A stretch of DNA of 64,000 nt from contig OX460916.1 of the NCBI GenBank assembly GCA_949788275.1, positions 1,488,001-1,552,000 on the forward strand, written 5' to 3'. Shown piece after piece: positions 1,829-45,796 of this stretch (positions are counted from its first letter, which is position 1; every line of letters begins with the position of its first letter). Position numbers and translations under genes: made by a program. Origin of the DNA: Weeksellaceae bacterium. GTDB lineage: Bacteria; Bacteroidota; Bacteroidia; Flavobacteriales; Weeksellaceae. A model generated the notes under the pieces. It was not told the DNA's origin, did not search any database, and was given only the letters and a program-made list of their open reading frames with translations.

Positions 1829-1970
1829 GGGCACCCCCTTCGGGCCAGGCTATCCGTTCCCAATTTTTGCAAGTGAAAACCATGCTTCCAAAAGAGCTTT
1901 GGTCGTTGCAAAAGATTTCCACTTCTATCCTTGGTGCAAATTGGGGTGTGCTTCGCCTTCGCTCAGCCTG
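1829..1970 (-). repeat. Dispersed structured element, copy A (type 1)
   Basis: On the minus strand this reads: a variable hairpin (GGCTGAGCGAAGGCGAAGC region), then AAGGATAGAAGTGGAAATC, a variable spacer, then ATTGGGAACGGATAGCCTGG, CCCGAAGGGGG and TGCCC. The same motif order is found in copies D and E, and a related order in B, C and F. Unlike B, C and F there is no T-tract terminator at its GGGC end. An open frame runs through it by chance. Confidence 0.75.
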
Positions 1971-6066: not shown

Positions 6067-6846
6067 TTAAAGTTTTGCATCGACCCCTTGGTTCATCATT
6101 TCGCGTTGACGATTTATTAATGCTTCCATGGCGGCTTTGTATTCTATTTTATTGACCACTTGTCCTTTCTTGGGTTTTTCTACTTTATCCTTCGGTTTAC
6201 CGACCGCCACTTCTTTTAATCGGAAGTCGAACACAAAATTCGCTGCATCGTTTAAGCTATGTTTTAATTCTAAGATCAATCCGGGAAGACCGTGATAAAA
6301 TGAAGGTCCGTTGGTATAGGCTAGACTAGGTGCATACCACGCTTCAATGACTTGAATTGAATCGACAATGGCTGTTGCTTTTTTAACCTCGTACCCCATA
6401 ATGGTTTTGGTTTCGCCTCGAATTAATTTCCAATCGTAGGTTTTCAGATCTTCTTTAATTAGGAAATCTTTATCGTAACCCGAGGCCACATGAAGGGAAG
6501 AATTATCTTGAAGGTTTTTATATAACAAACCGTTTCCTTCCGATAGACTAATGGTTATGGTTCTGTTTACCCGACCTTCATTGTTGTTATCGATGCGTTC
6601 TAAAGGACGATAACTCGATTCGTTTTTCGAGACAAAAAGCTCGTATTGATCCGGGATAAGCATTTTATCGCTTAGTCGTTTTATCACCTGTTCTGGCGAT
6701 AATTGCACACCATTTTCGGAGATAGACGATTTGGTTTTGGATGCATCGTATACGCGATAGTAATCGTAAACGGCATATAGAATATCCTGAGCAGAAAGCG
6801 TTGGTTGTGAAAAACAGAAACAGTACAAAACAAGGAGTGTTCTCAT
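6067..6846 (-). CDS. GLPGLI family secreted protein
   Basis: A 259-residue secreted protein with signal peptide (about 1-19, ending LSAQ), then ETKTIMGYEVKKA, IEAWYAPSLAYTNGPSF, and the full family motif GLPGLILEL. A paralogue lies immediately downstream in the same operon. The family is typical of Bacteroidetes and has no known activity; the sequence shows no catalytic motif. Its central region closely resembles the N-terminal domain of the PNGase F-like protein at 11284-12963, which suggests a shared fold. Confidence 0.85.
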   Translation of the reverse strand: MRTLLVLYCFCFSQPTLSAQDILYAVYDYYRVYDASKTKSSISENGVQLSPEQVIKRLSDKMLIPDQYELFVSKNESSYRPLERIDNNNEGRVNRTITISLSEGNGLLYKNLQDNSSLHVASGYDKDFLIKEDLKTYDWKLIRGETKTIMGYEVKKATAIVDSIQVIEAWYAPSLAYTNGPSFYHGLPGLILELKHSLNDAANFVFDFRLKEVAVGKPKDKVEKPKKGQVVNKIEYKAAMEALINRQREMMNQGVDAKL

Positions 6847-6869
6847 ATTCGATGATTTTAAATTACAGT

Positions 6870-6877
6870 CAAATATA
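6870..6877 (-). promoter_or_regulatory. Putative -7 promoter element of the GLPGLI operon
   Basis: The minus strand reads TATATTTG, an exact TAnnTTTG match, 23 bases upstream of the start at 6846. Confidence 0.45.
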
Positions 6878-6994
6878 AATTAAAAAAAGAAACTCTACAA
6901 ATGTAGAATCGTTATTTACGAAACTTTTTTAGCTAAGTCCATAATTGATAGTGCTCGCGAAGAGTATATTGAGAAAATTTAAAGCGAATGGGGT

Positions 6995-7025
6995 AAAAAA
7001 AGCCTCTACATAGAGGCTTTTTTTT
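6995..7025 (-). terminator. Intrinsic terminator of the lysine operon
   Basis: Stem AAAGCCTCTA / TAGAGGCTTT flanked by A-tract and T-tract, so it can work in both directions. It lies just past the stop codon of the lysine aminotransferase gene. Confidence 0.85.
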
Positions 7026-7035
7026 AGAGTTTATA

Positions 7036-8343
7036 TTAAAGTGTCAGCGCATTTCGCATAATGGAAAAGGCCAAATCGATTTCTTTCAATCCAACATTCA
7101 GGTGGGGACGAAAACGAACCGATGTTTCGCCACATCCCAATAGAATTAGTTTATTTTCAAAACAATGTTGGACAAAAACGTCACGGGCTTGATCGGTTGT
7201 AAAATCAAAAGCGATGAATAATCCTTTTCCTCTGACTTTGGTAATTTCGGGAAATTCTTGAGCCAAATCGTGCAAACGATTCATTATTTCATTTCCCATC
7301 TCTTGCGCATTGCCGACTAAATTATCTTTTTCAATGACGTCTAAGATGAGTTTAAACCTCAACATATCGATGTAATTTCCACCAAAGGTTGAATTGATAC
7401 GGCTGGATTCTTTAAAGACGTTTTTAGGAATTAAATCCATTTTATCTTTATTGGCAAGGATACCACACACTTGGGTTTTCTTCCCAAAAGAGATGATATC
7501 GGGCACCACACCATAGTGTTGAAACGCCCACATTTTACCCGTCATGGCCATTCCGGTTTGTATTTCGTCAAAGATGAGTAAGATTTCTTCGTGATCACAA
7601 ATTTCGCGCAATTGCTGTAAAAATTCTTTGCGGAAATAGTTATCTCCCCCTTCACCTTGAATGGTTTCAATGATAATACACGCCACTTTATTCTTACGCG
7701 TTTCTAACGCGCTTGCAATTTGTTTTAGAGCTGCTGTTTCGGTTACCATGGTAGCCGCCAGATTTTCTTCGTTAATCGGAAATTGAATTTTCGGGGTATC
7801 GATTCGGGGCCATTCAAACTTTGGGAAATACTCGTATTTACGCGGATCTTTGGTATTGGTTAAGGACAAAGTATAGCCAGAACGACCGTGAAAAGCCTGT
7901 TTAAAGTGAATTACTTCACCCGCTTCGTGTTCTATACCTTTTGAAAAATTTAAACGGGTTTTCCAATCAAAAGCCGCTTTTAGTGCATTTTCTACGGCCA
8001 GTGCTCCACCCGAGACAAAGAAGCAATACTGCAACTCTTTCGGCATAGCAACCCGAGCAAATGTATCAATTAATTGAGCGTAATCTTCGGTATAGATATC
8101 TGACATAGCAGGTTTATTCACGGCATTTCGCCCTAAAAAATCAATTTTAGAAACAACATACGGGTGATTGTAACCAATGGGGCTAGAAGCAAACATGCTG
8201 AACATATCGAGATATTCATCTCCCTTATCGTCTACGATATATGAACCGTGAGATTTGGCAATATCCATCACAATGGGATAACCGTCTGCTAAGATATGTT
8301 GGCCTAAACGGTAATGAACTGTATTTTTTAGTGTTGAATTCAT
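7036..8343 (-). CDS. lat: L-lysine 6-transaminase
   Basis: A class III PLP-dependent aminotransferase of 435 residues that would transfer the epsilon-amino group of L-lysine to 2-oxoglutarate, giving 2-aminoadipate 6-semialdehyde. Seen: DEYLDMFSMFASSPIGYNHP (42-61), cofactor-binding FDEIQTG (Asp259, Glu260), and the Schiff-base lysine in ISFGKKTQVCG (Lys288 or 289), which is the pattern of lysine 6-aminotransferases rather than ornithine or GABA enzymes. It is 13 bases downstream of the dehydrogenase that would use its product, so substrate and context agree. Cytosolic. Confidence 0.85.
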   Translation of the reverse strand: MNSTLKNTVHYRLGQHILADGYPIVMDIAKSHGSYIVDDKGDEYLDMFSMFASSPIGYNHPYVVSKIDFLGRNAVNKPAMSDIYTEDYAQLIDTFARVAMPKELQYCFFVSGGALAVENALKAAFDWKTRLNFSKGIEHEAGEVIHFKQAFHGRSGYTLSLTNTKDPRKYEYFPKFEWPRIDTPKIQFPINEENLAATMVTETAALKQIASALETRKNKVACIIIETIQGEGGDNYFRKEFLQQLREICDHEEILLIFDEIQTGMAMTGKMWAFQHYGVVPDIISFGKKTQVCGILANKDKMDLIPKNVFKESSRINSTFGGNYIDMLRFKLILDVIEKDNLVGNAQEMGNEIMNRLHDLAQEFPEITKVRGKGLFIAFDFTTDQARDVFVQHCFENKLILLGCGETSVRFRPHLNVGLKEIDLAFSIMRNALTL

Positions 8344-8356
8344 GTGTTAAATGAGT

Positions 8357-9886
8357 TTAAAAATTAAACGAAATCCCTTGTGCTAAAGGCACTTCAGTTG
8401 AGTAATTGATGGTATTGGTTTGTCGGCGCATATAAATTTTCCATGCATCAGATCCCGACTCTCGGCCACCTCCCGTGTCTTTTTCGCCACCGAAGGCACC
8501 ACCAATTTCGGCTCCAGAAGTTCCAATATTGACATTGGCTATACCACAGTCTGAACCTTGATGACTTAAGAATAATTCGGCCTCGCGCAGATTATTGGTC
8601 ATAATGGCTGAAGACAGTCCTTGTCTTACGCCATTCTGAAGTGCCAGTGCTTCATCGATATCGCCTGTATATTTAATTAGATAAACAATGGGTGCAAATG
8701 TTTCGTGCTGAACAATAGCGTAATGATTTTCAACTTCTGCAATAACAGGCTTAACATAGCAACCACTCTCGTAACCTTCTCCTGCTAAAACACCGCCTTC
8801 AACCAAAATTTTACCCCCTTCTTGGGTAATTTTATCCAAGGCCGATGAATACATCTCAACCGCTTGTTTATCGATCAATGGACCCACATGATTCGCAACA
8901 TCGAGTGGATCGCCAATCTTTAATTGTTTGTAAGCGTTCACCATCGCTTCCTTCACTTGATCGTATACTTTTTCGTGAATAATTAATCGGCGAGTCGATG
9001 TACAACGCTGCCCCGCAGTTCCTACGGCACCAAAAACAGCAGCCGTTAATGTTAAGCGTAAATCAGCATCTGGTGTGACAATAATCGCATTGTTTCCGCC
9101 AAGCTCTAAAAGTGTTTTACCCAGTCGGCCAGCCACCACTTTATTCACTTCGATGCCCATTCGGGTTGAACCCGTAGCCGAGATCAAAGGAATTCGTTCA
9201 TCTTTGGCTAGTAATTCGCCGATGACTTTATCGCCAATGACTAGTCCAGAGATTCCTTCTGGTAATTTATTTTCGGTTAAGACTTCGCTCAACAAGTGCT
9301 GACAAGCAACTGCACACAAAGGCGTTTTCTCACTCGGTTTCCACACAAACGTATCGCCACAAACCATCCCTAAACAGATATTCCACGCCCAAACGGCTAC
9401 GGGAAAATTAAAGGCGGTGATCACGCCTACCACACCTAGAGGGTGGTATTGTTCGTACATACGGTGCATTGGGCGTTCTGAATGAATCGTTAGGCCATAC
9501 AGTTGACGCGATAGACCAACCGCGAAATCGCATATATCAATCATTTCTTGAACTTCTCCTAAACCTTCTTGGTAAGATTTACCCATTTCATAAGAAACAA
9601 GTTTGCCCAATACGGCTTTTTTCTCGCGTAATTTTTGGCCAAATTGTCGAACAATCTCTCCTCTTTTAGGTGCCGGAAGCATACGCCATTCCTTAAAGGC
9701 TGTTTGCGTATGTTTCATGACATTTTCATAATCATCGACGGTTGACATTTTTACTTTGGCAATTAATTTTCCATCAACCGGCGAGTATGAAGCTAACCAT
9801 TCGCCGCTTGCAAACCATGTACTCCCTGTAGAGGATCCAAAATTCTCAGCGAGAATGCCCAGTTCTTTTAATTCGTTTTCTAACAT
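8357..9886 (-). CDS. amaB: 2-aminoadipate semialdehyde (piperideine-6-carboxylate) dehydrogenase
   Basis: A 509-residue ALDH7-type NAD-dependent aldehyde dehydrogenase. Catalytic Cys295 lies in GTAGQRCTSTRR and the general base Glu261 in ELGGNNA. The N-terminus (ELGILAENFGSSTGSTW) and the closing FNF-type tail are typical of the antiquitin family, which oxidises 2-aminoadipate 6-semialdehyde to 2-aminoadipate. It is the first gene of a two-gene operon with lysine 6-transaminase. The next step genes (2-aminoadipate transaminase, 2-oxoadipate dehydrogenase) are not in the window, but glutaryl-CoA dehydrogenase is divergent from it. Confidence 0.85.
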   Translation of the reverse strand: MLENELKELGILAENFGSSTGSTWFASGEWLASYSPVDGKLIAKVKMSTVDDYENVMKHTQTAFKEWRMLPAPKRGEIVRQFGQKLREKKAVLGKLVSYEMGKSYQEGLGEVQEMIDICDFAVGLSRQLYGLTIHSERPMHRMYEQYHPLGVVGVITAFNFPVAVWAWNICLGMVCGDTFVWKPSEKTPLCAVACQHLLSEVLTENKLPEGISGLVIGDKVIGELLAKDERIPLISATGSTRMGIEVNKVVAGRLGKTLLELGGNNAIIVTPDADLRLTLTAAVFGAVGTAGQRCTSTRRLIIHEKVYDQVKEAMVNAYKQLKIGDPLDVANHVGPLIDKQAVEMYSSALDKITQEGGKILVEGGVLAGEGYESGCYVKPVIAEVENHYAIVQHETFAPIVYLIKYTGDIDEALALQNGVRQGLSSAIMTNNLREAELFLSHQGSDCGIANVNIGTSGAEIGGAFGGEKDTGGGRESGSDAWKIYMRRQTNTINYSTEVPLAQGISFNF

Positions 9887-36694: not shown

Positions 36695-37195
36695 TTGACC
36701 AATAAAGCCACCATTTTTACTGATTTAATTGAAAAAAATCAAGGAATAATCCATAAGGTTTGTCGGATATACACCGATGAATCCGATTCCCATGATGATT
36801 TATTTCAAGAAATCGTTTTGCAACTATGGCGCTCATTTGATTCGTTTAAAGGCGATTCGAAATTTAGTACATGGATGTATCGCGTTGGCTTAAATACAGC
36901 GATTACTTTTATACGCAAAAAAAACACGACCACGGCGTTTTATTCCTACGAAGAAGTCTCTTTTTCCATAAAAAGCGAAGAGAAAGATGAATTGCTCGAA
37001 GAGCGTTTATCGATGCTATATGCTGCTATTCGATTACTGAATGATGTAGAACGCGCTTTGGTCTTACTTTACTTAGAAGATTTACCCTATAAAGAAATTG
37101 CAGAAACCATGGGAATCTCTGATGTAAATGCCCGCGTAAAAATGAACCGTGTGAAAAGTAAATTAAAGGACATAATGACTAAAATGGAGCAATAG
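36695..37195 (+). CDS. ECF-type RNA polymerase sigma factor
   Basis: 166-residue sigma-70 family protein of the ECF group. Region 2 has 'SHDDLFQEIVLQLWRSFDSFKG' and 'FSTWMYRVGLNTAI'; region 4 has the HTH 'YKEIAETMGISDVNARVKMNR'. No ATG is available near the N-terminus, so I accept the TTG at 36695 as start, an unusual choice in this genome. It is followed after one base by a membrane protein that resembles the usual partner of such sigma factors. Its target may include the metal-uptake genes just downstream. Confidence 0.88.
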   Translation: MTNKATIFTDLIEKNQGIIHKVCRIYTDESDSHDDLFQEIVLQLWRSFDSFKGDSKFSTWMYRVGLNTAITFIRKKNTTTAFYSYEEVSFSIKSEEKDELLEERLSMLYAAIRLLNDVERALVLLYLEDLPYKEIAETMGISDVNARVKMNRVKSKLKDIMTKMEQ

Positions 37196-37196
37196 T

Positions 37197-37838
37197 ATGG
37201 AGTTAGACGACCTAAAATCGGCTTGGCATTCTGTTAAAGATGAGAAGCATTTTGATCACCAAGAGATTTTCACGATGTTGAAAAAGAAATCTTCAACCAC
37301 CATTAAATGGTTGTTTATTTTTACAGCAAGTGAGTTTAGTTTGTTGGTATTCTACAATATTTACATGCTGGTATCGGGCAGTGAATTCTTGAGCAGTGAA
37401 TCAATTCAAATTACGGATAGCCAAACTTTATTCACCTATAAACTCGCTTCTTATTTCAGTTTATTGATTAGTTTATTCTTTTTATTGTATGCCTATAAGT
37501 CGTATAAAAAAATAGATCTCAATCAATCGGTGAAAGAATTAATGACCTCCATTATTGTATTTCGACGAGTGGTGAATTTATTTATTCTCTTTACCGTGGC
37601 CAGCGTGATTATTTTTTCAGCGCCCTTTTATTACGAACTCGGCAAGTCGGTCTATTTAAATAAGCATTTGGCGTTGGCTGATGGACTAAGTGGTATGGAA
37701 AAAATATATGGTTGGATAGCCATTGGAATTTCAGTTTCATTTATTTTAATTATTGCCACCATCTATTATGCGGTGGTCTATTATTTATTTTTAAGAAAAT
37801 TGGATCGAAATTTAAAAGATTTAAAAGAAATAAATTAA
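37197..37838 (+). CDS. Membrane protein paired with ECF sigma factor
   Basis: 213-residue protein opening with 'ELDDLKSAWHSVKDEK', a soluble N-terminal segment of about 35 residues common to Bacteroidetes proteins co-transcribed with ECF sigma factors, followed by four membrane helices (about 39-60, 85-103, 124-145, 171-195). It may hold the sigma factor inactive at the membrane, but it lacks a recognisable zinc anti-sigma motif, so the role is inferred from position. Confidence 0.65.
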   Translation: MELDDLKSAWHSVKDEKHFDHQEIFTMLKKKSSTTIKWLFIFTASEFSLLVFYNIYMLVSGSEFLSSESIQITDSQTLFTYKLASYFSLLISLFFLLYAYKSYKKIDLNQSVKELMTSIIVFRRVVNLFILFTVASVIIFSAPFYYELGKSVYLNKHLALADGLSGMEKIYGWIAIGISVSFILIIATIYYAVVYYLFLRKLDRNLKDLKEIN

Positions 37839-37849
37839 AATATTATGTT

Positions 37850-37857
37850 TACTTTTG
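37850..37857 (+). promoter_or_regulatory. Putative -7 promoter element of the metal-uptake locus
   Basis: TACTTTTG matches TAnnTTTG, 20 bases upstream of the start at 37878. No Fur- or Zur-like inverted repeat was recognised near it. Confidence 0.42.
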
Positions 37858-37877
37858 TCCTGTTTTAGCACGTTTAA

Positions 37878-38189
37878 ATGAAAAACATCATGAAATATGT
37901 CTTACTTACTGTTGCCCTGATTATGTCAGTGTATCAGTCTGCGCATATTTTAGAACATGCTTACCAAGATCATCAATCGCAAAACGAAGACACTTATCCT
38001 TCTTTGCACGATCATCAGTGTACAATTTGTCATTTTAGTTTACATACGACGACTCCAGAAGTCTATGTTGCTGATTTCACCATCAATGAAACCATGGTTG
38101 AACACGACAAACAAGTCTTTTACCAAACCGTAAAACAATCTGTTTTATTTAAACAACGAAGTTTACGGGCTCCCCCGACCATGATTTAA
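37878..38189 (+). CDS. Small His/Cys-rich envelope protein, TBDR-linked
   Basis: 103-residue protein with one N-terminal membrane or signal segment (5-20), then 'HILEHAYQDHQ' and HDHQCTICHF, a cluster of histidines with a CxxC that could bind a metal ion, and the C-terminus RAPPTMI. A second small protein of the same plan (EH, HHQC, GPP near the end) lies on the other side of the receptor gene. I do not recognise a named family. The pairing points to a role in metal handling in the periplasm. Confidence 0.55.
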   Translation: MKNIMKYVLLTVALIMSVYQSAHILEHAYQDHQSQNEDTYPSLHDHQCTICHFSLHTTTPEVYVADFTINETMVEHDKQVFYQTVKQSVLFKQRSLRAPPTMI

Positions 38190-38236
38190 TTACCAACCGC
38201 TTACACAAGCTTTTACGTATTTAAATCAAATCAATC

Positions 38237-40612
38237 ATGTCATTTTATCTAAAATTGGCTTTAGCAACCCTATCTATTAGTGGTACAGCTATGGCCCAAC
38301 ATACGATTAACGCGAAGATCGTTGATCAAAACCATCAACCTATTCCCTTTGCGAACGTTGCCCTTAACAATCAAGAAATTGAAGTAAATTCAGACGGTTT
38401 ATTCACCATTTCTGATTTAAAATCGGGGTCTTATACCCTATTCATTCATGAACAAGGCTATATCGCCATTGAGCAATCCATTGCGCTATCCAAATCAACC
38501 ACACTTACTTTTGTCTTGATTAAAGATGAGACCTATCAACTGCAAGAGATTAAAGTCATTGGTCATACACACGGTTTCTCAACAGCTAATTCGGAAAAAG
38601 TCGATCAACAATACGTGGTCGATCATTACGCTGGATCCTTAGCGAAATCGTTGGAAAACCTAGCTGGGGTGAATGCTTCTGGTATTGGTTCATCGGCTTC
38701 AAAACCAATTATTCGGGGATTAGGATTTAACCGATTAAGCGTCACTGAAAATGGTTTAAAACAAGAAGGACAGCAATGGGGCGCCGACCATGGATTAGAA
38801 ATAGATGCGTTGAATGTTGAAGAAATAGAGGTGATAAAAGGACCTGGAACATTGGAATATGGAAATGAAGCCATTGCAGGGGTCATTAAAATTAAAAACG
38901 ATCGTTTACCCGCTAAAAACTCGTCCAACTCTTCTGTACAGACGCTATATCAAAGTGTCAACGACCATTACGGCATTGCATTTCAACATGCTACTCGAGG
39001 AACAAATAGCTTTATAAAAGTAAAAGGTTCCTATGGAAATTATGGCGATTACCGAACAACGACCGATCGCATAAAATACTTGGATCGTTATTTACCTATT
39101 TACGATAAGCGGGTTAAGAATACGGCTGGTAGAGATATCAATGCCCAGATTCAATTGGGGTATGTCACCGATCATTTTCGCACGACAACCACCCTATCGA
39201 ATGTTGCTCAAAAAACAGGATTTTTCCCTGGATCACATGGAATACCGGTAACGGAACGATTAAAACCCGACGGCAACAACCGCAACATAGAGTACCCTTA
39301 CCAACAAGTCAATCACTTTAAGGTGATTAATGACAATCAATGGACATTAAACTCGAAAAACGCATTGAATTTATTAATGGGTTATCAATACAATGTTCGT
39401 CAGGAGAAGAGTGAATTTCATACGCATTATCAGAACGAACCTTTGCCGTTGAAAAATGCGGATTTAGAATTGGGCTTTAAATTATCGACTTATGATGCAC
39501 AGCTTAAATTTGAGCATAATCACAATCGACAATTTAAGACCGTTGCTGGAATACAAACCCAGATTCAGCGCAATGAGATCGAAGGGTATAATTACCTTTT
39601 ACCTCGTTATGAACGCAATATCTACAGCGCTTATGTACTCGAGGAATTTAAACGAGATAACCGATGGAAGATTACGGCAGGTATCCGTTACGATTATGCA
39701 AAAGTTGCCACAACAGGTTACTTTGATCAGTTTTTATACGATTACTTAATCCACGACGGATTATCGCCAACAACAGCTAATCATTACGCCAATAGAAGCG
39801 CGTCCATCGACCGAAATTTTGGAAATATTAATGGAATGATTGGTGCTACTTACCGCCCGAATGATTATTGGGATTTCACCTTGAATGCGGGGACTAATTT
39901 CCGTTTACCTACGGCGATTGAATTAGCTTCGAACGGAATACATCACGGATCATTTCGCCATGAACGGGGAAATGCAGATTTGGATACCGAGAAAGGTTAT
40001 GCCATCGATTTTAAAACGACTTATCACCAAAATGGATGGGAAGTAAGCGTTAGTCCGTATATGTATTATTTTACCAATTATCTATTTTTAAAACCATCGG
40101 GTCAGTTTTCTATTTTACCACATGGCGGGCAAATTTATGACTATACGCAGAGCAAAGCTTTATTAACTGGATTTGAAGTGAGTATAGCCAAAACATTTGC
40201 TGATCGTTTAAGCACTCAGGCGATTTATGAATTTAATTACAATCGTCAATTGAATGACAACAACCATTTAAGTTACTTTTTACCATTTACGCCCCCCCAT
40301 TCGCTATTTGCTGAAGTGACGTATCAAGTAACCCCATCGACCAAGAAACAAGCGGTATCGGTATATACCAATGCACGCTATGCGTTTGAGCAAAGTAATA
40401 TTGCTCAGAATGAAGATATAACGGCCGGGTATTTTATTATGGGATTAGGCGCAAGAGCACAATTGCACGTAGGGAATTTTAAATTCAATACGGCCGTGCA
40501 GGTGAGTAATTTATTGAATGAGAAATACTACAACCACACGAGTTTTTATCGTGTATTGGAAATGCCAGAACAAGCCCGAAACATACAAGTTATTTTAAGT
40601 ATTCCTTTTTAG
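38237..40612 (+). CDS. TonB-dependent receptor, probably metal uptake (ZnuD-like)
   Basis: 791-residue outer-membrane receptor. Signal peptide 1-20 (ending AMAQ), a carboxypeptidase-regulatory-like domain (about 22-100), plug domain (about 118-222, with 'SASKPIIRGLGFNRLSV' and 'QQWGADHGLEIDAL'), then a 22-strand barrel ending in 'NIQVILSIPF' with terminal Phe. The plug's DHG and the many histidines in loops recall zinc receptors of the ZnuD type. No SusD partner follows, so it is not a glycan receptor pair. Neighbours with His-rich sequence support a metal substrate. Confidence 0.82.
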   Translation: MSFYLKLALATLSISGTAMAQHTINAKIVDQNHQPIPFANVALNNQEIEVNSDGLFTISDLKSGSYTLFIHEQGYIAIEQSIALSKSTTLTFVLIKDETYQLQEIKVIGHTHGFSTANSEKVDQQYVVDHYAGSLAKSLENLAGVNASGIGSSASKPIIRGLGFNRLSVTENGLKQEGQQWGADHGLEIDALNVEEIEVIKGPGTLEYGNEAIAGVIKIKNDRLPAKNSSNSSVQTLYQSVNDHYGIAFQHATRGTNSFIKVKGSYGNYGDYRTTTDRIKYLDRYLPIYDKRVKNTAGRDINAQIQLGYVTDHFRTTTTLSNVAQKTGFFPGSHGIPVTERLKPDGNNRNIEYPYQQVNHFKVINDNQWTLNSKNALNLLMGYQYNVRQEKSEFHTHYQNEPLPLKNADLELGFKLSTYDAQLKFEHNHNRQFKTVAGIQTQIQRNEIEGYNYLLPRYERNIYSAYVLEEFKRDNRWKITAGIRYDYAKVATTGYFDQFLYDYLIHDGLSPTTANHYANRSASIDRNFGNINGMIGATYRPNDYWDFTLNAGTNFRLPTAIELASNGIHHGSFRHERGNADLDTEKGYAIDFKTTYHQNGWEVSVSPYMYYFTNYLFLKPSGQFSILPHGGQIYDYTQSKALLTGFEVSIAKTFADRLSTQAIYEFNYNRQLNDNNHLSYFLPFTPPHSLFAEVTYQVTPSTKKQAVSVYTNARYAFEQSNIAQNEDITAGYFIMGLGARAQLHVGNFKFNTAVQVSNLLNEKYYNHTSFYRVLEMPEQARNIQVILSIPF

Positions 40613-40622
40613 TATTCAAACT

Positions 40623-40955
40623 ATGAAGCCTGCTTTAAAACGCATGACAACACTATTTTTTAGTGGATTACTTTTATTGATTCCGATAGTTAACGAACTG
40701 CATTTTGTTCTTATAGAACACGATAATACATTCGCTAGTCAACAGAACAAAGTGATTCACCACCAGTGTAGTGACTTTTTATACCATGCGGTTTATTTAG
40801 ATAAACTTCCGGAAGAAATGGTTGTTCCGCAATGGATCGATTTTGAAAATTATCTGCCCATTTACAGCCAAGAAAAAGATTTGATTGAAGGCGCCTTTGT
40901 GCTATTAAACAATAAAGGCCCACCCTGTATACATAATCCTCTTATAAGCAGCTAA
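40623..40955 (+). CDS. Small His/Cys envelope protein, relative of the upstream one
   Basis: 110-residue protein with an N-terminal hydrophobic segment (about 8-24), 'ELHFVLIEHDN', IHHQCSDFLYH and a C-terminal GPPCIHNP. The order of these marks (EH, HHQC, then PP near the end) is that of the 103-residue protein before the receptor, which suggests an old duplication. Starts 10 bases after the receptor gene, so it is in the same transcript. Family and function not recognised. Confidence 0.5.
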   Translation: MKPALKRMTTLFFSGLLLLIPIVNELHFVLIEHDNTFASQQNKVIHHQCSDFLYHAVYLDKLPEEMVVPQWIDFENYLPIYSQEKDLIEGAFVLLNNKGPPCIHNPLISS

Positions 40956-41009
40956 ACTTTTGAGAAAACAAGCCTTTACTTCGTTTGTCGAGCGCTTAAA
41001 ATCCTTTTG

Positions 41010-41126
41010 TTGCTGAATGCTTCGCATTTAGTTGCGGCAAGGATAGCAGTGGAAATCCTTTTTTATGGGCATGTCTATGCCATAAAAAAGATTGGGAACG
41101 AATAGCCTGGCCCGAAGGGGCCGCCC
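41010..41126 (+). repeat. Dispersed structured element, copy D (type 1)
   Basis: GAATGC-TTC-GCATTT hairpin, then GCGGCAAGGATAGCAGTGG and AAATCC, a variable hairpin (TTTTTTATGGGCAT / ATGCCATAAAAAA), GATTGGGAACGAATAGCCTG, hairpin GGCCC-GAA-GGGGCC, and GCCC followed by an A-tract. Clearly the same family as A and E. It separates the small protein gene from the DUF4625 gene; here no gene terminator converges on its end. Confidence 0.82.
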
Positions 41127-41198
41127 AAAAAAAACCCTGCAATAAGCGAACGCAAAGAGGTTACTTATTATGTATACATACAATAAAATAAAACAATT

Positions 41199-41660
41199 AT
41201 GAAAACACGTTTTTTAAATTATACAATCGCGGCGATGGCCACCTTATTTATATTCTCTTGTTCATCGGATGATGATGTTGTTTTAGACACCGAGAAACCG
41301 ACTATTCTATTAGCAAAACCCACTGATCATGCTCATTTTCATCTAGGAGATGTGATTGATGTTGAAGCTATTTTTAAAGATAATCTTGAATTGGGGTCTT
41401 TTAAAATCGATATCCATTCGGCTGCAGGACACACGCATAAAACAGCTAATGTAAAATGGGAATATAAGTATGAAGAGCCTATAACAGCTGGGAAACGCGA
41501 GCATTTATTGCGTCATAGCATTCAAATCCCAGAAGAAGGAATTATTGAAGGCGATTATCATTTTGGGATTGTTCTTTTGGATAAAGCCGGTAATCAGACC
41601 ACAACATATATTGAAATAGAAGTTGGTCATGGTGATCACGATCATGATCACGACCATTAA
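41199..41660 (+). CDS. DUF4625 lipoprotein with His-rich tail
   Basis: 153-residue lipoprotein: lipobox IFSC (Cys about 21) followed by SSDDD, an export pattern of Bacteroidetes surface lipoproteins. One Ig-like DUF4625 domain ('EKPTILLAKP', 'HFHLGDVIDVEAIFKDN', 'LLDKAGNQTT'). It ends in HGDHDHDHDH and has further histidines (HAHFH, HTHK), so metal binding is likely. The receptor gene upstream makes zinc or copper capture the best guess. Ends in a terminator. Confidence 0.72.
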   Translation: MKTRFLNYTIAAMATLFIFSCSSDDDVVLDTEKPTILLAKPTDHAHFHLGDVIDVEAIFKDNLELGSFKIDIHSAAGHTHKTANVKWEYKYEEPITAGKREHLLRHSIQIPEEGIIEGDYHFGIVLLDKAGNQTTTYIEIEVGHGDHDHDHDH

Positions 41661-41677
41661 TCGTCTTCTACTACCGA

Positions 41678-41705
41678 TGCCCGAATTTATTCGGGCATTT
41701 TTTAT
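41678..41705 (+). terminator. Intrinsic terminator of the DUF4625 gene
   Basis: Stem ATGCCCGAA / TTCGGGCAT with a 4-base loop, then TTTTTT. Confidence 0.9.
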
Positions 41706-41761
41706 ACGGTAAAGTTGGTCAGAAATTCTTAATTTAGCGACACTCAAAATTTTAAAACACC

Positions 41762-42625
41762 ATGATTGCAATAGTAGATAGCGGCGCAACAAAAGCCGAT
41801 TGGGTAATTCTTGATGCCTCGTATAAAGAAAAATTTAGAACGGTAACTGCGGGAATGAATCCTTACCATGTTCCGAGTGCAGTCATGCTAGAAGAAATTT
41901 CAAAGAATGCCGATTTAGTAGCTGTTGCAAAAGAAATAACCCATGTTTTTTTCTATGGATCGGGTTGTTCTAATTCGCGGATGCATACAGTAGTTCGCGA
42001 AGGATTAATGCCTTTTTTTACAGAAGCAGAACACGTGATTGATCACGATTTATTGGCCGCGTGTTACGCCACCTATAAAGGCAAGCCAACCATGGTTTGT
42101 ATCTTAGGAACAGGTTCTAATTCGTGCTATTTTGATGGGAAAACCTTGAGAGAAGAAACTCGTTCTTTAGCTTATATTTTAGGTGATGAAGGAGGCGGAT
42201 GTGATTTAGGAAAACGTCTATTACAAGCTTATTTCTTAAAGAAAATGCCGAAGCATTTAGGGGATGCCTTTCACGAGGAATACAACTTGAGCGTGGATGA
42301 ATTAAATAAAAATGTGTATCAGAATCAGTTTGCAAGTGCCTATATCGCTTCGTTTAGCACATTTATTGCGAAACATAAGCAAGATCCATTTATTCAAAAA
42401 ATTATTTATGATGCGATGAAATCATTTATGGAGAATCAGATTATGCCCTATCCGGAGGCCCGATCTTCAGAATTGAATTTTATTGGATCGATTGCCTATT
42501 ATTACGAAGACATAATTCGAGCGGCAGCGGCAGAATACCACTTTAATGTGGGCCATATTGTGCAGAAACCGATTGATAATTTGGTGCAATATCACATTGA
42601 TTATTTGTTAAATAAACCCCAATGA
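41762..42625 (+). CDS. N-acetylglucosamine kinase-like BadF/BadG family ATPase
   Basis: 287-residue cytosolic sugar kinase of the ASKHA fold. Phosphate 1 motif 'VDSGATKADWVI' (5-16), phosphate 2 'CILGTGSNSCYF' near 118 and 'LGDEGGGCDLGKRLL' near 138 match GlcNAc kinases of Bacteroidetes. It would phosphorylate amino sugars recovered from cell-wall turnover or glycans. The next gene starts inside its stop (ATGA overlap). Confidence 0.8.
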   Translation: MIAIVDSGATKADWVILDASYKEKFRTVTAGMNPYHVPSAVMLEEISKNADLVAVAKEITHVFFYGSGCSNSRMHTVVREGLMPFFTEAEHVIDHDLLAACYATYKGKPTMVCILGTGSNSCYFDGKTLREETRSLAYILGDEGGGCDLGKRLLQAYFLKKMPKHLGDAFHEEYNLSVDELNKNVYQNQFASAYIASFSTFIAKHKQDPFIQKIIYDAMKSFMENQIMPYPEARSSELNFIGSIAYYYEDIIRAAAAEYHFNVGHIVQKPIDNLVQYHIDYLLNKPQ

Positions 42626-45681: not shown

Positions 45682-45796
45682 GGGCGGCTGCTGCGCACCG
45701 GGCTATCCATTTCAATCTTTTTTTTAAATAAAAAAAAGGATTTCCATTGCTATCCCTGCCGCGGCTTCCTACAAAATGGATGCTCAGCCATTTAAA
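45682..45796 (-). repeat. Dispersed structured element, copy E (type 1)
   Basis: On the minus strand: hairpin AAATGG-CTGAGCAT-CCATTT, GCGGCAGGGATAGCAATGG, AAATCC, an A/T hairpin (TTTTTTTATTTAAAAAAAA), GATTGAAATGGATAGCCCGG, and TGCGCAGCAGCCGCCC. It sits in the 377-base gap 45507-45883 next to the terminator of the second lipoamide dehydrogenase. Confidence 0.82.

Follow-up and report, generated by a model that had tools for sequence, protein, structure and literature searches.

A candidate metal-sensing arrest peptide before a TonB receptor, and a possible second one before a DUF4625 lipoprotein, in a Weeksellaceae bacterium

The closest studied counterpart of the locus described here is CruR of Bordetella pertussis (bp2923), a DUF2946 protein encoded by an upstream open reading frame (uORF) before the TonB receptor gene bfrG. 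CruR carries a CXXC and a RAPP motif 45 residues apart, a spacing that varies by no more than one or two residues among more than 2000 DUF2946 proteins; the copper response requires the CXXC, and the downstream TonB receptor requires RAPP to be expressed (Roy et al., PMC9426467). We analysed a window of 64 kb (contig OX460916.1, positions 1,488,001 to 1,552,000) of the 3.34-Mb single-contig genome of a Weeksellaceae bacterium (GCA_949788275.1). Six genes in one direction (+) were found there, encoding an extracytoplasmic function (ECF) sigma factor, a membrane protein, a small protein that we call S1, a TonB-dependent receptor, a second small protein, S2, and a DUF4625 lipoprotein. Taken as a whole, the locus is probably best explained by S1 acting as a nascent-chain metal sensor of the CruR/CutF type and by S2 possibly acting as a second such peptide that gates the lipoprotein.

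RAPP and RGPP arrest translation robustly, with an irreplaceable Arg, and CruR itself arrests in vitro; the third and fourth codons of the motif occupy the P and A sites of the stalled ribosome, and TonB-related RAPP/RGPP uORFs are reported throughout the Gram-negative bacteria (Fujiwara et al., PMC12992588). Arrest activity of RAPP is described in a further source (PMC10951233). Like S1, the peptides ApdA, ApdP and ApcA and the set from S. lividans have a C-terminal RAPP or RGPP in a small exported protein, but the well-characterized cases either monitor Sec/YidC or come from actinobacteria, and S2 of our window has a Lys in place of the critical Arg. The CutF-like proteins, named after the cutFOG genes of Rhodobacter capsulatus, share with S1 and S2 a length below 150 amino acids, export and a PP near the C-terminus; a stem shielding the next start, as CutF has it, is a candidate feature of S1 and S2. 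Both small proteins of the window pass the filters for that group, being shorter than 150 amino acids, having PP in the last 15 residues, being putatively exported (for S2 as judged by its hydrophobic N-terminus alone) and lying no more than 1000 nucleotides (nt) before a gene on the same strand. They differ from CutF in that the target is an uptake-type receptor and that S1 has CXXC rather than CxxxC. Ozturk et al. count CutF-like proteins in Bacteroidota (19% of their list D), and the accessible text of that paper shows no double-uORF arrangement among them (PMC9973294). Candidate arrest uORFs with a proline at the very end, uA_NSP-stop and uDF_NAP-stop, are known from Bacteroidota as well, but these precede sec genes and have other motifs, and no metal site is mentioned in the text available (PMC10987492). 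The literature found on Bacteroidota holds counts of such uORFs and no studied metal case.

S1 (37878..38189, +) is a candidate arrest-peptide uORF of 103 amino acids with an N-terminal helix and the motifs ..HILEHA..HDHQCTICHF..LRAPPTMI. The codons of CTIC, the CXXC that forms the candidate metal site, lie at 38019..38030 (+), and those of RAPP, the candidate arrest site, at 38166..38177 (+). The two motifs are 45 residues apart and RAPP ends 3 residues before the C-terminus; in all these points, and in being a small exported protein encoded before a TonB receptor, S1 resembles CruR. Alignment of 23 sequences showed that His23, Cys48, Cys51, Leu96, Arg97, Pro99 and Pro100 are invariant. The distance between CXXC and R(A/G)PP is 45 or 46 residues in 23/23 homologues, RAPP is the terminal motif of 21 of them and RGPP that of the other 2, and the motif stands 3 residues from the C-terminus in 22/23. 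A second alignment of 24 sequences, consisting of S1 and 23 receptor-linked uORFs hand-picked from 65, gave the same invariant set plus Met1. Over all 65 receptor-linked uORFs, with starts called by script, the CXXC-to-R distance has a standard deviation of 1.5 residues as compared to 11.9 for the stretch before CXXC. Structure prediction gave a single N-terminal helix (residues 2-36), with predicted local distance difference test scores (pLDDT) of 84-95 per block over residues 1-30, and a low-confidence, disordered-looking chain beyond it. S1 is therefore predicted to have an export signal or an N-terminal membrane segment.

By profile score, S1 is not a plain DUF2946 member and that assignment was set aside, since it reaches 14.9 bits against a Pfam cut-off of 23.7, which is one difference from CruR. 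Matches to DUF2946 at E 0.1 or better were obtained for 6/23 S1 members (best 0.0012), and 2/198 Bacteroidota genomes have a DUF2946 protein above the cut-off. The best family match of S1, over its full length (E 7.7e-4), is NCBIfam LIC10965 (NF047702, Leptospira), which 13/23 members match at E 0.1 or better; S1 scores 19.7 bits, below the cut-off of 130, and the family belongs to Spirochaetota. In host-adapted Leptospira LIC10965 is upregulated 9.73-fold and LIC10964, annotated as a TonB receptor, 3.46-fold (PMC3953431). The consecutive LIC numbers, from which adjacency is read, suggest that the same uORF-receptor pair is present in Spirochaetota.

The first-pass annotation of this DNA, made from the letters alone, had made its proposal of a metal-uptake locus depend in part on whether the small proteins accompany TonB receptors in other Bacteroidota, and this linkage was found from both sides. 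Searching with S1 gave matches in 44/395 genomes of the phylum, its own counted. With the own genome excluded, 50/54 hits end in R(A/G)PP; 43 of the 50 have a CXXC 41-46 residues before the motif and 7 have no CXXC. The receptor is the next open reading frame (ORF) in 29/50 and lies within the next four ORFs in 43/50. For the converse search, loci were fetched by receptor alignment only, with 12 receptors from S1-bearing loci; of 487 relatives the 80 best were retained, a set that leans to near receptors. A uORF was scored where at least 700 nt of upstream sequence was available and an ORF ending in R(A/G)PP or KAPP/KGPP lay no more than 600 nt before the receptor. Such a uORF precedes the receptor in 62/74 loci with enough upstream sequence, and all 62 have CXXC. 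Small ORFs in all frames numbered 1913; R(A/G)PP no more than 12 residues from the C-terminus was found in 84 that adjoin the receptor and in 2 elsewhere. Hosts in this set include Bacteroides cellulosilyticus, B. faecis, Phocaeicola vulgatus and Parabacteroides goldsteinii. A DUF4625 gene follows the receptor in 76/80 loci. The original proposal is supported as regards a metal-uptake-type locus whose two related small His/Cys proteins accompany TonB receptors in many Bacteroidota, with a DUF4625 lipoprotein as partner; the metal-carrier role that it assigned to the small proteins is considered below. Some loci depart from the usual layout. In L182 a second small ORF ending in RAPP (1039-1401) lies about 3.6 kb upstream of the receptor, off the usual place. 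Eight loci (L119-L123, L138, L142, L145) have the order uORF, DUF4625 lipoprotein(s), receptor and AztD-like gene, the uORF not directly preceding the receptor. In L127, L130, L137 and L147 uORFs with RAPP and CXXC stand before an ABC ATPase (NosF-like by eye); further downstream, L127 also has a TonB receptor of the siderophore type and a DUF3526-containing ABC-2 membrane protein.

The receptor (38237..40612, +), with plug and barrel, is ZnuD-like and heme-receptor-like. Its closest relative of solved structure by sequence is ZnuD (4rdr, E 2e-19), and the ZnuD model NF038289 is its top NCBIfam match, with 130.5 bits as compared to a curated cut-off of 950, but the scores of heme-receptor models come close to this (121.8). 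An AztD-like zinc-chaperone gene is the fourth ORF in eight phylum loci, all from one genus, together with uORF, DUF4625 genes and receptor; the AztD-like protein of L119 matches at 5.2e-23 and 81.4 bits against a cut-off of 400, and the other seven were called by similarity to it. In L161 (1250-5348, -) a RAPP uORF with a single Cys and no CXXC precedes a gene for 389 amino acids, followed by ZnuA, ABC and ABC3 genes; this uORF is a candidate zinc leader peptide. We slightly favour zinc as the sensed metal. Copper has a lower but still appreciable chance: CXXC is the copper site of CruR and most CutF-like proteins of the Cys type adjoin copper genes (PMC9973294), but the receptor is ZnuD-like, AztD-like neighbours occur, albeit in one genus, a ZnuA-type operon stands behind the single-Cys relative, and copper-related RAPP/RGPP uORFs are reported to be lacking in Bacteroidota (PMC12992588).

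The last codons and stop of S1 are complementary to the start region of the receptor gene, in some loci including the ATG itself. In the window the left arm (38180..38191, +) and the right arm (38228..38239, +), which spans the receptor start codon at 38237-38239, form an inverted repeat with 10/12 complementary positions, the genes for S1 and the receptor being 47 nt apart; an alternative inverted repeat pairs 38182-38193 with 38217-38228. The stem was first spotted by eye and tested afterwards. In 19 related loci, where the spacers measure 41-63 nt, the arms co-vary between loci and the native mean energy was reached in 1/20000 permutations that swapped right arms (4/50000 for 10 representatives) and in 0/400 sets of dinucleotide shuffles. 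As a control, 142 ordinary adjacent gene pairs gave 2 cases below 0.05 and a mean without excess. Over the phylum, a limit of 25-120 nt for the spacer was set after a test over 150 nt downstream had given a weak result in 50 loci (1235/50000), and with this limit the native energy was reached in 1/50000 permutations for 22 loci and in 13/50000 for 18 representatives, 9/22 loci being singly below 0.05. The limit was kept unchanged for a further 42 receptor-selected loci, which gave 12/50000 permutations, 0/300 shuffle sets and 10/42 loci below 0.05. Receptor starts for the shuffle tests, the phylum tests at 25-120 nt and the further set were assigned by a script rule. Given the stall position described above and the usual footprint of a ribosome, a ribosome stalled at RAPP should therefore lie over the left arm. 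The pairing above controls across these sets suggests that the stalled ribosome uncovers the receptor start.

The same uORF logic could operate through Rho-dependent transcription termination, as in Bordetella CruR, with the stem being secondary. In its favour, Rho is used by CruR, the best counterpart among studied systems, and in several distant loci the spacer is long or the stem lacks significance; it is nevertheless somewhat unlikely. CruR has a 162-nt spacer with a Rho terminator, whereas the S1 locus and its relatives have the short spacers given above and a stem that would occlude the start, with start-region pairing above controls over the tested sets. CruR further differs in that its locus has a PepSY membrane protein, where the S1 operon has a downstream DUF4625 lipoprotein and a second, CXXC-less uORF.

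For stalling that opens the receptor start, the course of events may be pictured as follows. Transcription would start just upstream of S1, where a match to TAnnTTTG, which we take to be the consensus of the Bacteroidota -7 promoter box, occurs at 37850..37857 (+; TACTTTTG), 28 nt before S1; in 18 related loci the distance between box and S1 is 12-16 nt. At no more than 45 nt from the start, the box is found for 37/64 receptor-linked uORFs as compared to 46/275 control gene starts, which suggests that S1 begins its own transcript. When metal is scarce, the ribosome would stall at RAPP near the end of S1, as expected from the published work on this motif. Covering the last codons of S1, it would prevent their pairing with the receptor start, and the receptor would be made. 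Metal bound at the CXXC/His site, 45 residues back, would release the arrest, so that the stem forms and the receptor is switched off. The receptor would import the metal, more likely zinc than copper, and the lipoprotein would assist. A reversed, CutF-like polarity, in which bound metal would lengthen the stall and activate the gene downstream, appears quite improbable: the CutF stem shields the next start and behaves in this way (PMC9973294), but CutO is a copper-detoxifying enzyme, whereas the target here is an uptake-type receptor which metal should repress, and CruR, the receptor-linked case, has the repressing sign. That S1 and S2 are instead exported metal carriers or chaperones that accept metal at the receptor and pass it on to a system of the inner membrane, as the first-pass annotation had it, is very improbable: an N-terminal hydrophobic helix and conserved His/Cys would fit, and a copper chaperone was also the original conjecture for CutF (PMC9426467), but carriers do not account for the terminal R(A/G)PP that never varies in S1, a distance from Cys to RAPP that is nearly fixed beside a free N-terminal length, the low-confidence prediction outside the helix, the complementarity of the last codons to the next start and the position directly before the receptor, all of which point to nascent-chain regulators.

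S2 (40623..40955, +), starting 10 nt after the receptor gene, is the second candidate uORF, of 110 amino acids, with the motifs ..VLIEHD..IHHQCSDF..NKGPPCIHNPLISS. The HHQC codons lie at 40758..40769 (+), with the Cys 48 residues before KGPP (40914..40925, +). The motifs that had been listed as common to S1 and S2 are indeed shared, and the relatedness of the two exceeds chance in profile-profile comparison (92% probability, E 7e-7 for one comparison, 14% identity over 98 aligned columns); the aligned columns cover nearly the full length and take in both the Cys region and the (A/G)PP end, and a broader S1 alignment gave 91.6%. The GPPC end that had been read in S2 is not terminal, as nine residues follow GPP. 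By these profiles S2 is a divergent, remote relative of S1. Its family has HxC and no CXXC in 19/19 sequences, with His47 and Cys49 invariant, and the distance from the Cys to (R/K)GPP is 48 or 49 residues in 19/19, matching that from the first Cys to R in S1. RGPP is present in 16/19 and KGPP in the window and two others; S2 may be weakened or decayed in this genome. Among receptor-selected loci, an S2-type ORF, never with CXXC, directly follows the receptor in 21/78. In the 20 loci with both S2 and DUF4625 the distance from receptor to lipoprotein start is 372-450 nt; in the 56 without S2 the lipoprotein gene overlaps the receptor stop by 4 nt in 26 and starts within 60 nt in 23 more. S2 thus takes the place of the close spacing and gives the lipoprotein a separate leader.

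This makes S2 a possible second gate, for the lipoprotein, with a His/Cys site that lacks CXXC; its presence and position are observed, and the gating itself is put forward conditionally, KGPP making it weaker here. In the window the codons directly 3' of KGPP (left arm, 40926..40943, +) pair with 41155..41178 (right arm, +), which ends 20 nt before the DUF4625 start, in a stem of 18 bp with a 12/12 complementary core (-19.1 kcal/mol, p 0.002). As a general feature of the family this stem was set aside, since it is significant singly in only 3/19 loci. That the locus is a doubly gated zinc-uptake operon, with the CXXC peptide before the receptor and the His/Cys peptide before the lipoprotein each opening the next start by stalling, is at present a tentative proposal.

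Several observations weigh against the explanation by nascent-chain sensors, besides the S1 score under the DUF2946 cut-off, the few singly significant S2 stems, the weak phylum-wide test over 150 nt and the choice of the spacer limit after it. Singly, the S1 stem is below 0.05 in 7/19 related loci and that of the window has p ~0.09; the stem is absent in L061 and L062 and weak in L054 and L055. By our own grouping of the further set, 7/14 loci from Flavobacteriia and only 3/28 others are below 0.05. The S2 stem is weaker than that of S1 in permutations (147/20000; 810/50000 for 9 representatives without the window), for the first of which the lipoprotein start of L051 was moved to the next in-frame ATG after S2, and S2 of the window has KGPP rather than R(A/G)PP, while the Arg is reported to be irreplaceable for arrest. 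No uORF was scored in 12/74 receptor loci, although in at least one of them, L245, a motif ORF overlaps a receptor start called too far upstream. The genes for sigma factor and membrane protein end 39 nt upstream of S1, which therefore may not head the transcript. The receptor matches ZnuD 4rdr best in its plug region alone (115-274), and the opposite sign of CutF, in which metal prolongs stalling, means that the polarity could be reversed.

The gene order at the locus, all on the + strand, is that given in the first-pass annotation. The ECF sigma factor gene (36695-37195, +; TTG start; Sigma70_r2 5.9e-15) is followed by that of the membrane protein (37197-37838, +), for which the family-profile search gave no family above cut-off, and S1 begins 39 nt further on. 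In 20 related loci, picked by their S1 match, all six genes occur in order in 18; L058 is without the sigma pair and S2, and L059 lies at a contig end. In L053 the receptor frame (6345-8726) is split into two ORFs, by mutation or sequencing error. The sigma/membrane pair adjoins S1 in 19/20 near loci, but a tblastn search (E 1e-5) of 53 more distant phylum loci found none at up to 5 kb. Kept only in near relatives, the pair therefore does not define the system and was set aside as a part of it. Among 148 genomes of the family, S1 matches occur in 24 and S2 matches in 18, the own genome counted in both (for S2, 21/148 by profile, one doubtful), and S1 and S2 are both present in 13 other genomes of the genus. 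The closest named loci by receptor are those of Empedobacter and Faecalibacter, then Vaginella. Two rows without the motif were dropped at E ~0.01, L066 (G011) from S1 and L067 (G060) from S2; L165, L170, L171 and L172 (E 8e-4 to 0.0099, no motif ORF) were left out of the phylum set, as was an S2-profile match in G030 (0.0079, internal stops) from that of S2. The ORF of L065 was chosen by position and motif instead of BLAST, and S2 of L060 by BLAST at 0.004.

Between S2 and the lipoprotein, 243 nt apart, the element that the first-pass annotation had noted as D is present and was identified as a Flavo-1 RNA (RF01705) at 41026..41116 (+), in the loop between the S2 arms. It scores 57.8 bits (E 4.6e-11), above the Rfam gathering cut-off of 42, in a search that covered 37000-42000 of the window. 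Two more partial matches to the Flavo-1 core, 20-mers at 1913-1932 (-) and 45738-45757 (-), occur in the window. In related loci the spacers between S2 and lipoprotein are only 21-73 nt and so too short for Flavo-1. A match to AgvB at 41633-41703 (27.9 bits against a cut-off of 56) was taken as chance. The DUF4625 lipoprotein (41199..41660, +; Pfam 93.9 bits, cut-off 27) has a His-rich tail; the lipobox Cys21 and His73, 78 and 80 are invariant in 33 sequences. Its prediction is a beta-sandwich (mean pLDDT 86), and the 50 best rows of the fold search held general beta-sandwich matches, with no metal protein singled out; our search of the open-access literature found no paper on DUF4625. A probable intrinsic terminator, a perfect inverted repeat of 10 bp followed by a T run, lies 3' of this gene (41677..41698, +).

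Studies of metal control in Bacteroidota usually look to transcription factors. Systems of the kind proposed here, in which an arrest uORF reads metal ahead of a TonB receptor, have been outlined by the work on CruR and CutF and by the RAPP surveys. We found no description in the open-access literature of a Bacteroidota case that combines a conserved receptor-DUF4625 module, a second uORF of another sensor type within the operon and a start-occluding stem; the supplements of the surveys, which lay outside this search, may list such ORFs. If the proposal holds, CruR/CutF regulation would extend to Bacteroidota and provide a nascent-peptide solution for zinc, and many of the 'hypothetical' proteins encoded before TonB receptors, about 100 residues long, would be translation-time metal sensors, easily missed by proteomics, also in gut Bacteroides, Phocaeicola and Parabacteroides. 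The two-peptide form would be mostly a feature of Flavobacteriia, the one-peptide form being more widespread among Bacteroidota. If the operon is doubly gated, it would combine a zinc-responsive arrest peptide with two checkpoints, and an added second uORF would be able to uncouple two genes of one operon.

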